DNA of 33,778 nt from Candidatus Rokubacteria bacterium RIFCSPLOWO2_02_FULL_73_56 (GTDB lineage: Bacteria > Methylomirabilota > Methylomirabilia > Rokubacteriales > CSP1-6), in NCBI GenBank assembly GCA_001788495.1, contig MGCF01000091.1, forward strand, positions 1 to 33,778, read 5' to 3'. Under the pieces are notes generated by a model that saw only the letters and a list, made by a program, of their open reading frames with translations, was not told the origin of the DNA and ran no database searches. Each line of letters opens with the position of its first letter. The first letter of the stretch is position 1. Shown piece by piece: positions 22,776 through 31,560 of the stretch. The translations under genes and the position numbers were made by a program.

Positions 22776-22925
22776 ATGAGCAAGACCGGAGGCGCGCCCG
22801 TGCTCGCGCTGGCCGACAGCATCATCTACCTGACCGCGCTGCTCGCCGACCGGCGCCGCGCGATCGACCGCTACATCGACTACTTCGGTGAGACATGGCG
22901 TCCGCACGGCCGACGCGCCTCCTGA
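22776..22925 (+). CDS. small hypothetical protein, 49 residues
   Basis: GGGAGG stands nine bases before the ATG. Almost all codons before the overlap end in G or C, so the frame looks genuinely coding. The product has an amphipathic or hydrophobic helix (LALADSIIYLTALLADRR) followed by RAIDRYIDYFGETW. The last 31 bases overlap the start of the NDH-2-like gene in another frame, which suggests translational coupling. It may be a small membrane-associated partner of that enzyme (speculative). No family recognised. Confidence 0.5.
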   Translation: MSKTGGAPVLALADSIIYLTALLADRRRAIDRYIDYFGETWRPHGRRAS

Positions 22926-24505
22926 TCCTCGGCGGGGGCTTCGGCGGCGTCTACACCGCGATCGCCCTCGAGAAGCTCCTGCGGCGCGAGCTCCGGCGGG
23001 GCGAGGTCGAGCTCGGCCTCGTGAGCCGCGAGAACTACCTCGTGTTCCAGCCCATGCTCCCGGAGGTGATCTCCGGCAGCATCGGCCTCCTCGACACGAT
23101 CACGCCGATCCGCCGGCTCTGCCCGCGCACGAACCTCTACACGCGCGAGGTCGAGAAGATCGACCTGGCCAGGCGGCGCGTCTCGGCGGCGGCGGGCTTC
23201 GGCTCGCGCCAGTGCGCGCTCGAGTACGACCATCTCGTGCTCGCGCTCGGCAACGTGACGAGCTTCGCGGGCCAGCCGGGCCTCGCCGAGCACGCGCTGC
23301 CGTTCAAGTACCTCGGGGACGCGCTCGCGCTGCGCAACCGCATGATCCACACGCTCGAGGAGGCGGACATCGAGCCGGACCCCGAGATGCGCCGGGCGCT
23401 GCTCACGTTCGTCGTCGCGGGCGGCGGCTTCTCGGGCGTGGAGGCGGTCGCCGAGCTGAACGACTTCGTGCACGCCGGCGCCCGGAGCTTCAAGAATCTC
23501 CGGCGCGAGGAGATCCGGGTCGTTCTCCTGCACGCGGGCGGCCTCATCCTGCCCGAGCTGTCGCGCTCGCTCGCCGAGTTCGCCCAGCGGCTCCTCCGGC
23601 GGCGGGGCGTCGAGATCCGCCTCGACACGCGCCTGGCCGGCGCGACGGCCGACGCCGCGCTGCTCGCCGACGGCGGGCGGATTCCCACGCGCACGCTCGT
23701 CAGCACCGTGCCGTCGGCGCCGAACCCGCTCCTGGCCGCGCTGCCGCTCAAGATGGAGCGGGGGCGCATCGTCGTGGACGGCCACCTCGCGGTCCCCGAT
23801 CACCCGGGGGTCTGGGCGGTCGGCGACTGCGCCTGGGCGCTCGACGGGCGGAGCGGCGAGCCGTGCCCGCCGACGGCGCAGCACGCGACGCGCCAGGCGC
23901 GCTGCGTCGCCGAGAACGTCGCCGCGACGCTCCGGGGGGCGGCGCGGCGGACGTTCGCGTTCACGGCGCTCGGCAAGATGGGCGCGCTCGGCCACCGCTC
24001 GGCCGTCGCCGAGGTCTTCGGCGTCAAGCTCTCCGGCTTCCTCGCGTGGTGGCTCTGGCGGACGATCTATCTGCTGAAGCTGCCGGGACTCGACCGCAAG
24101 CTCCGCGTCGCGACCGACTGGACGCTCGACCTGCTCCTGCCGCCCGATATCGTCCAGCTCAAGACCGAGAAGCCCGCGGGCATCCGCCGCGAGCACTTCG
24201 AGCCGCGCGAGGTGATCTTCCGCGAGGGTGACCGCGGCGACCGGCTCTACGTGATCGTGGACGGCGAGGTCGAGGTCCTCAAGCAGGTGCCCGGGCGGGG
24301 CGAGGTCCCGCTCCGGCGGCTCGGCCCGGGCGAGGTCTTCGGGGAGATCGCGCTGATCAGCGACCAACCGCGCTCCGCGATGGTCCGGAGCGTGAGCGGC
24401 GTGAACCTCATGGCGGTGGACCGCGAGGCCTTCCAGGCGCTGTTCGCGAACCTGCCGCCGCTCCGCAGCTTCTTCGAGTCGTTGCTCGACGCGAGGAGCG
24501 CGTGA
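22895..24505 (+). CDS. NDH-2-like FAD-dependent oxidoreductase with C-terminal cyclic-nucleotide-binding domain
   Basis: A 536-residue fusion. Residues 1-420 are a type II NADH dehydrogenase-like flavoprotein: FAD site LLILGGGFGGVYTAIAL, NAD site FVVAGGGFSGVEAVAEL, a C-terminal FAD contact GVWAVGDCAW, and a hydrophobic segment near residues 376-400 (FLAWWLWRTIYLLKLPG) like the NDH-2 membrane anchor. Residues about 430-530 form a CRP/PKA-type cyclic-nucleotide-binding fold (FREGDRGDRLYVIVDGEVEV), with a phosphate-binding cassette close to consensus (FGEIALISDQPRSAM) including the Glu and Arg that hold a cyclic nucleotide. This suggests NADH:quinone oxidoreduction gated by cAMP or a similar ligand, which is inference. 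A 49-residue gene overlaps its start. Confidence 0.9.
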   Translation: MASARPTRLLILGGGFGGVYTAIALEKLLRRELRRGEVELGLVSRENYLVFQPMLPEVISGSIGLLDTITPIRRLCPRTNLYTREVEKIDLARRRVSAAAGFGSRQCALEYDHLVLALGNVTSFAGQPGLAEHALPFKYLGDALALRNRMIHTLEEADIEPDPEMRRALLTFVVAGGGFSGVEAVAELNDFVHAGARSFKNLRREEIRVVLLHAGGLILPELSRSLAEFAQRLLRRRGVEIRLDTRLAGATADAALLADGGRIPTRTLVSTVPSAPNPLLAALPLKMERGRIVVDGHLAVPDHPGVWAVGDCAWALDGRSGEPCPPTAQHATRQARCVAENVAATLRGAARRTFAFTALGKMGALGHRSAVAEVFGVKLSGFLAWWLWRTIYLLKLPGLDRKLRVATDWTLDLLLPPDIVQLKTEKPAGIRREHFEPREVIFREGDRGDRLYVIVDGEVEVLKQVPGRGEVPLRRLGPGEVFGEIALISDQPRSAMVRSVSGVNLMAVDREAFQALFANLPPLRSFFESLLDARSA

Positions 24506-27415: not shown

Positions 27416-27490
27416 GTCCCCGACATCATAGCGCAGGGTTGCATCGGGCCGGGAGTCGGCGTGTCCTATGCTGGGGTCAGGGGAGGAGCC

Positions 27491-28861
27491 ATGGACCGAT
27501 ACGATCTGCTGGTCATCGGCGGGGGCGCGGCCGGCATCAACGCGCTCAAGCAGGGGCTCAAGCTCGGGGCGCGCGTGGCCCTCGTGGACTCGGGCCCGCT
27601 CGGCGGCGCCTGCATCAACCGGGGGTGAATTCCCAAGAAGACCTTGGTAAGGTCTGGGCGGATCCACCGGCTGGTCAAGGAGGCAGGCGCCTTCGGCACG
27701 CGCACGGGCCCCGTCAGCCTCGACTGGGACGCGCTCGTGCGCCGTCAGCACGCGATCGTGCGCGAGCTCCAGCCCGCGCCGGCCGCCTTCGAGCGCGCCG
27801 GCGCGAAGGTGTACCTGGCCGATGCGCGCTTCGTGGACGCCCACACGGTGCAGGCCGACGGGCACCGCGTGCAGGCCGACCGGATCGTCATCGCGGCGGG
27901 GTCCGAGCCCGTCCTGCCGCCGCTCCCCGGGCGCGAGCTCGCGATCACCTCCGACCGGATCCTCTTCCTCGAGCGCTTCCCCGAGAGCCTCGTGCTCGTC
28001 GGCGCGGGCGTGATCGGCCTCGAGATGGCGAGCGCCTTCGCCGACCTCGGCGCGCGGGTCACGCTGCTCGGCCGCGAGCCCGAGATCCTGCCGGCGCTCG
28101 ACGCCGACGTGGCCGCGTACCTCCGCGCGCTGCTCGAGGCGCGCGGGGTGACGTTCCACCTCGGCGCGCGCGTCGCGCGCCTGTCGGGCGAGGCCGGGCG
28201 CGTGACGGCGCACGTCACGACGGGCGCCGGGCCGGCTGCGGTGACGGCGGCGCAGGTGTGCCTCGCGGTCGGCCGGCGCTACGATCCGGCGCGCGCCGGC
28301 ACCGACGCGCTCGGCCTCGCGCGGGGGCGCCTCGGGCTCCAGGTGGACGCGCACCTCAAGACGTCGCTCCCGCACATCTACGCGGCGGGCGACGCGGCGG
28401 GCAACCAGCAGCTCACGCCGACCGCGGCGTACGAGGGGCGCGTGGCGGCGCTGAACGCCCTCCAGGGCGACGTGCAGACGGTGGACTACACGGTCGTCCC
28501 GCAGGCGGTCTTCACGACGCCCGAGGTCGCACGCGTCGGCCTCACCCACGCGGAGGCGCTGGCGCGGGGCGTCCGGTGCCACGTCGCGCGCCACGACCTG
28601 CGGGGCGCGTCGAACGGCCGGGCCACCGGCGAGGACGCCGGGTACCTGAAGCTCGTGTTCGACGGCGCCTCGGAGCGGGTGCTCGGCGTGCAGATGGTGT
28701 CCTACGCCGCGGCCGAGCTGATCCAGCTCGCGGCCCTGGCGATCCGGACCGGCGCCGACGCCGCCCTGCTGTCGAGCCAGCTCTCCATCCACCCGAGCCA
28801 CGGCGAGCGGCTGATCAAGATCTTCGGTCACGACCACCACGAGGTCTGCGAGCCCGCATGA
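27491..28861 (+). CDS. selenocysteine-containing pyridine nucleotide-disulfide oxidoreductase (dihydrolipoyl dehydrogenase/mercuric reductase-like)
   Basis: Read as one 456-codon frame with TGA at 27626-27628 decoded as selenocysteine 46. FAD site [19 protein letters not shown]; redox motif GGACINRG then Sec then IPKKTL, so the family CxxxxC disulfide becomes Cys41-Sec46. The NAD site is [20 protein letters not shown] (about 167-186), the second FAD contact is [11 protein letters not shown], and the C-terminal dimer domain holds the catalytic HPSHGE (His/Glu pair). The frame is identical on both sides of the TGA, and nothing but this residue is missing. GGGAGGAG lies directly before the ATG. 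A SECIS-like hairpin follows the TGA. It uses NAD(P)H to reduce a disulfide, metal or selenium-type acceptor; the acceptor is unknown. Alternative: a recent nonsense mutation. Confidence 0.85.
27632..27658 (+). promoter_or_regulatory. candidate bacterial SECIS element
   Basis: Directly after the in-frame TGA, CCCA (27632-27635) pairs with TGGG (27655-27658), and above a four-base bulge GACCTT (27640-27645) pairs with AAGGTC (27649-27654), leaving the apical loop GGT. The loop is 18-20 bases after the TGA, matching the roughly 19-21 of E. coli fdhF, and contains the G-U that SelB recognises. Codons in this stretch (ATT, GTA, TCT) are AT-ending, unlike the rest of the gene, as expected if RNA structure constrains them. 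Confidence 0.75.

Positions 28862-28917: not shown

Positions 28918-31560
<2,643 letters not shown>

Follow-up and report, generated by a model that had tools for sequence, protein, structure and literature searches.

Comparative evidence shows that a flavoprotein disulfide reductase of Candidatus Rokubacteria bacterium RIFCSPLOWO2_02_FULL_73_56 is encoded in a frame whose UGA at codon 46 is recoded to selenocysteine (Sec). Taken as a whole, the reading is very probable: a C41-xxxx-U46 flavoprotein disulfide reductase in which Sec is inserted through SelB and a hairpin and takes the redox role proposed below. The gene lies on the forward strand of the window, the whole 33,778-nucleotide stretch of DNA that was analyzed. 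Inspection of the sequence placed the Shine-Dalgarno-like GGGGAGGAG before the ATG at 27491, and the only in-frame TGAs in 27491-28861 are codon 46 and the terminal stop at 28859-28861. The features of the gene are as follows.

27480-27490, forward strand: Shine-Dalgarno-like GGGGAGGAGCC upstream of the ATG (from the sequence)
27491-28861, forward strand: gene for the predicted Sec-containing class I flavoprotein disulfide reductase, 456 amino acids, stop TGA at 28859-28861
27611-27613, forward strand: TGC, Cys41, the first (interchange) Cys of CxxxxU, invariant
27626-27628, forward strand: TGA, predicted Sec46, the second (flavin-proximal, charge-transfer) position of the motif (from translation and relatives)
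27639-27655, forward strand: putative bSECIS hairpin AGACCTT-GGT-AAGGTCT, 7-bp stem, GGU apical loop at 27646-27648 (geometry per PMC13188914)
28790-28807, forward strand: HPSHGE with His434 and Glu439, invariant in the family (from alignment)
28826-28858, forward strand: C-terminal tail with Cys453 (from alignment and relatives)

The preliminary description had placed a TGA at 27626-27628 in an otherwise unbroken frame behind a ribosome-binding site. These coordinates are exact, and the codon is the sole internal TGA. It had also put this TGA on the second cysteine of a CxxxxC motif, which is indeed exactly residue 46 of the frame, and had predicted an annotation as two truncated open reading frames; the standard list holds two, one ending at 27628 and the other starting at 27644. 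Its proposal of a selenoenzyme is supported by the sel genes, by the TGA kept in relatives, and by the hairpin.

A reductase match below 1e-100 was present in 20 of the 95 genomes analyzed for the phylum. Codon 46 was TGA in 19 of 19 intact TGA frames, found in 18 genomes (window included) of 12 genera, and the other intact Sec copies were 63-84% identical to the window reductase. Their motif was always GG-x-C-[IV]-[NH]-RG-TGA-IPKK; at one locus (L046), the match begins three residues later than in the other copies. A twentieth Sec copy (L045, genome G063) is damaged and reads VNRG-TGA-IP, followed by an internal deletion and a frame break. At another locus (L031:1501-2884, genome G076), the reductase frame continues into the downstream GH63-like gene, through either a fusion or an assembly deletion.

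One orthologue, L044, is 55-56% identical and has TGC at codon 46, in a genome that retains selA, selB, and tRNA-Sec; the distant homologues also carry Cys there. Position 46 thus varies as the preliminary description had anticipated, TGA in relatives and Cys in L044 and the distant homologues, and stops elsewhere in the clade, which it had named as evidence against its claim, were not found. The family is sharply bounded, since the next match to L044 within the phylum has 32% identity. All 20 genomes with family members fall in one taxonomic family, and the named Sec copies come from Candidatus Rokuibacteriota groundwater MAGs. Outside the phylum, the distribution rests on one species-genome scan with six peptide patterns, in which the Sec forms were Rokubacterial only and the Cys forms were at most 38% identical. 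The tree joined the family, L044 included, in one clade (support 100/100); with support of 45/49 for L044 branching before all Sec copies, it fits a change of Cys to Sec as well as one of Sec to Cys.

According to the published rule, a bSECIS element combines a 4-16-bp stem with a 3-9-nt loop whose first two nucleotides are G, the loop lying 16-37 nt after the UGA (PMC13188914). The window hairpin, which begins 10 nt downstream of the UGA, has this geometry, with a 7-bp stem and a GGU loop 17 nt after the TGA. A GGU-loop hairpin occurred at exactly +17 in 19 of 19 intact Sec copies. Fifteen copies retain GACCTTGGTAAGGTC, including the codons TTG, GTA, and AGG, whose shares among synonymous codons in the rest of these genes are 3.3%, 0.8%, and 7.1%; in all 15 genes, no stretch of four codons is rarer than the one that contains GACCTTGGTAAGGTC, and the joint usage of the window's stem codons (TTG-GTA-AGG-TCT) is 1.2e-7. 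The four divergent copies form the stem from different bases, as GCCCT-GGTC-AGGGC (two copies), GGCCTT-GGTC-AAGGCC, and GGCCCT-GGTG-AGGGCC, with the GGU kept at +17. The Sec copies are related, and the 15 have an identical stem by descent.

A position-fixed synonymous-codon shuffle test (40,000 shuffles, six representatives) reached the stem in none of the 40,000 shuffles for five representatives and in 0.6% for L041. This test was chosen third, after a covariation alignment and an unrestricted hairpin search; beside that choice, +17 is common to all copies and lies inside the published range. The hairpin search at any position did not reach significance for most copies, no matching family was found in Rfam, and the folding energy of the 45-nt stretch was ordinary for GC-rich DNA (z = -0.37). 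There was no covariation in the stem in the ungapped alignment; because loops of 3 nt and of 4 nt both occur, the stem is not visible in a plain MAFFT alignment. Given the ordinary energy and the absence of ungapped covariation, the case for the hairpin is made by its position, loop sequence, codon rarity, and absence from Cys homologues: neither L044 nor any of 74 Cys homologues had a stem of at least 4 bp at the hairpin position. Since codon 46 is TGA in all 19 intact TGA frames and the hairpin beats the synonymous-codon shuffles, the TGA is not there by chance.

The genome of the window (G000; 4.05 Mb, 93.9% complete) has tRNA-Sec (selC) at C164:16319-16412 (69.8 bits), selA at C164:17726-19078 (577 bits), and selB at C164:19108-20991 (376 bits), clustered within 5 kb of one contig, with selD at C64:53472-54416 (336 bits), so that all four genes the preliminary description had proposed to look for are present. 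The tRNA-Sec sequence has TTCA where the UCA anticodon is expected. The selD gene (L023) is itself a TGA-containing selenoprotein gene, with its in-frame TGA in ACAG-U-ASK and an 8-bp hairpin 3' of it. Across the phylum, selA scored above the cut-off in 83 of 95 genomes. One marker-complete MAG (G087, the genome of L041) contains the Sec reductase, and selA, selB, and tRNA-Sec were not found in it; all three are present in its congener G086. Because selA, selB, and selC form one cluster and G086 has all three, a missing contig is likely in G087; had the machinery been lost, the reductase gene should be decaying, and no such decay was seen.

UGA-reading Cys tRNAs exist elsewhere, and position 46 is Cys in homologues, which would fit a changed code or a special tRNA through which UGA is read as Cys or Trp. 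Nevertheless, the complete Sec machinery of the genome includes tRNA-Sec, the reductase gene itself terminates with TGA, and at the published distance stands a hairpin of the SECIS type, which SelB requires. We regard decoding as Cys or Trp as very unlikely.

Between the window and six relatives, dN/dS was 0.03-0.34 before the TGA and 0.2-0.46 after it; by these ratios, purifying selection acts on the codons to either side, and the two parts are coding in one frame. Every Sec UGA competes with release factor, and the site could be leaky and regulated, with the UGA mostly terminating, Sec minor or selenium-dependent, and the product ratio being the function. However, the 45-residue stub contains just the start of the FAD domain, and selection on the 410 downstream codons implies that the full product matters, leaving a leaky site as improbable as the Cys or Trp reading. 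Less probable still is a pseudogene with a nonsense TGA and a decaying downstream frame: although standard annotation yields two fragments, the codon-46 TGA stands in 19 intact frames (the others 63-84% identical to the window), the ratios indicate purifying selection on either side, and there are no other stops. A sequencing or assembly error of a TGC or TGT codon has next to no probability, for although the window comes from a MAG, 18 genomes have the TGA, including named groundwater MAGs from different isolates and assemblies, and the hairpin accompanies TGA forms only.

The Sec-encoded protein scored above the Pfam gathering score for both Pyr_redox_2 (206.8 bits) and Pyr_redox_dim (90.6 bits), and with both domains, CxxxxC/U, and HPxxxE, it has the marks of a class I flavoprotein disulfide reductase. 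Cys41, Lys50, Glu178, His434, and Glu439 are invariant in the family, while position 46 is U or C; His434-Glu439 in HPSHGE is presumably the acid-base dyad of GR/DLD-type reductases. Among solved chains, glutathione amide reductase (2r9z) is nearest in sequence, followed by mercuric and glutathione reductases, and lipoamide dehydrogenase (2eq6) is nearest in fold. An AlphaFold2 model built from 19 family members (mean pLDDT 76, pTM 0.76) gave TM values of about 0.8-0.86 against the lipoamide dehydrogenase, glutathione amide reductase, and MerA structures. The protein has the fold, the FAD, NAD(P), and dimerization domains, the CxxxxC site, and the His-Glu dyad in common with GR, DLD, and MerA of class I but differs from them in its predicted Sec in place of the second redox Cys.

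The NCBIfam scores for lipoamide dehydrogenase, MerA, and glutathione reductase were close together, each below its curated cut-off. Dihydrolipoyl dehydrogenase (TIGR01350) scored 335.7 bits against 408.8, and mercuric reductase (TIGR02053) 330.7 against 454.45, with a single tail Cys in place of the C-terminal Cys-Cys. For glutathione-disulfide reductase, the scores were 321.6 against 480 (NF004776), 307.5 against 606 (TIGR01424), and 247.3 against 556 (TIGR01421), and glutathione synthetase (TIGR01380) was not found in the genome. The Sec-type high-Mr thioredoxin reductase was rejected as well, the C-terminal GCUG being absent from the reductase; an ordinary TrxB is encoded elsewhere in the genome. 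Two other proteins of the genome, ordinary DLDs of the Cys type, exceed the DLD cut-off (537 and 462), and one is also above the Sth transhydrogenase cut-off. Since the reductase stays below the cut-offs for DLD, MerA, and GR, and other proteins of the genome exceed that of DLD, it is by these profiles a separate subfamily and not the cell's DLD. Homologues found outside the family are at most 38% identical to it. The earlier label "dihydrolipoyl-dehydrogenase-like" therefore holds at the superfamily level and not for the DLD family itself.

Neighboring genes in one branch encode fructose-bisphosphate aldolase, glucokinase, and a large GH63-like protein, and those in the other encode a short-chain dehydrogenase and M24 or M16 peptidases; in neither branch did the gene context point to the substrate of the reductase. 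The large glycosidase-like gene of the window (28918-31560), GH63-like by eye and with no NCBIfam match, lies directly 3' of the reductase, and a GH63-like gene with 74-82% identity is also near the reductase in L146, L147, and L148. At L150, L151, and L152 of the other branch, a short-chain dehydrogenase gene is close upstream of the reductase, including at the Cys46 orthologue. Elsewhere in the window, 22895-24505 encodes a type II NADH dehydrogenase-like protein that weakly matches the Nterm_to_SelD oxidoreductase family and whose C-terminal part weakly matches cyclic-nucleotide-binding regulators.

In the CxxxxC motif of GR and DLD, substrate is attacked by the first Cys, and the second engages FAD in a charge-transfer complex. 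Because Cys41, Lys50, Glu178, His434, and Glu439 are invariant, this usual chemistry would be possible with a selenolate beside the flavin. SelB and Sec-tRNA(Sec) would recognize the hairpin 10 nt past the UGA, with Sec inserted instead of termination. From the family's known mechanism, we infer a redox chain from FAD through Cys41-Sec46 to the substrate: electrons would pass from NAD(P)H to FAD and on to the Cys41-Sec46 selenylsulfide, after which Cys41, together with the His434-Glu439 dyad, would reduce the oxidized substrate, a disulfide or another compound, and Sec46 would serve in charge transfer and as the leaving group.

A Cys near the end of the C-terminal tail, mostly in H[DE]xHExC, was present in 18 of 18 Sec copies with a readable C terminus (17 intact copies and L045). 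It is absent from the Cys46 orthologue, and 3 of 85 C-terminal tails in Cys-homologue loci had a Cys after HPxxxE. As the Sec copies are related, this association is only suggestive of a tail that works together with the Sec pair; the pLDDT of the model is under 50 in the tail. We infer that Cys453 may act in the partner subunit's active site, either accepting electrons from Cys41-Sec46 or binding substrate there. A three-residue selenium relay is conceivable though rather doubtful, in which Cys41 and Sec46 stand by the flavin and Cys453, which goes with Sec, would act at the partner subunit's site; it would either transfer electrons to a substrate that is large or metal-bound, or hand over a metal or metalloid in the manner of the MerA tail.

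Animal high-Mr thioredoxin reductase and thioredoxin-glutathione reductase belong to the same superfamily and have Sec in a C-terminal GCUG tail. To our knowledge, the Sec-containing flavoprotein disulfide reductases so far, the animal thioredoxin reductases, have selenium in this tail and not in the flavin-facing pair. The arrangement in the Rokubacterial reductase would be reversed, with a flavin-proximal Sec and a tail Cys instead of a tail Sec and a flavin-proximal Cys-Cys. Two bacterial Sec flavoproteins of the wider superfamily, CoA-disulfide reductase (UGxP, TIGR03385) and type III sulfide:quinone reductase (HxxU, NF049943), are the flavoprotein entries of the 2026 inventory of 119 bacterial selenoprotein families (PMC13188914). 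They are other families with other motifs, whereas the Rokubacterial motif is the CxxxxU of the GR/DLD class, a type absent from that inventory (PMC13188914, Table 1). NF041115, a metal-binding selenoprotein formerly called "putative mercuric reductase" (UxxU; PMC13188914, PMC9312934), resembles the reductase in name only; it has two Sec, is modeled as a metal-binding protein, and was not in the best 25 of the reductase's 48 NCBIfam matches. The reductase is also not among the new families of the deep-Sep paper (PMC12013277). A groundwater survey (Deng et al. 2026, Cell Rep 45:116760, cited in PMC13188914) predicted 63 selenoprotein genes in one Methylomirabilota MAG. The survey may already list this sequence, so the family is new in the sense of not found described, rather than shown to be unseen.

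The Sec reductase would be an added family in the bacterial selenoproteome, one that annotation pipelines would split in two. The natural flavin-facing Cys-Sec pair, together with a natural Cys46 orthologue (55%) in a related genome, would make the role of selenium directly testable, as redox potential, charge-transfer spectrum, and resistance to over-oxidation could be compared between Sec and Cys46. Were the relay true, the enzyme would be a mirror image of the animal thioredoxin reductase.
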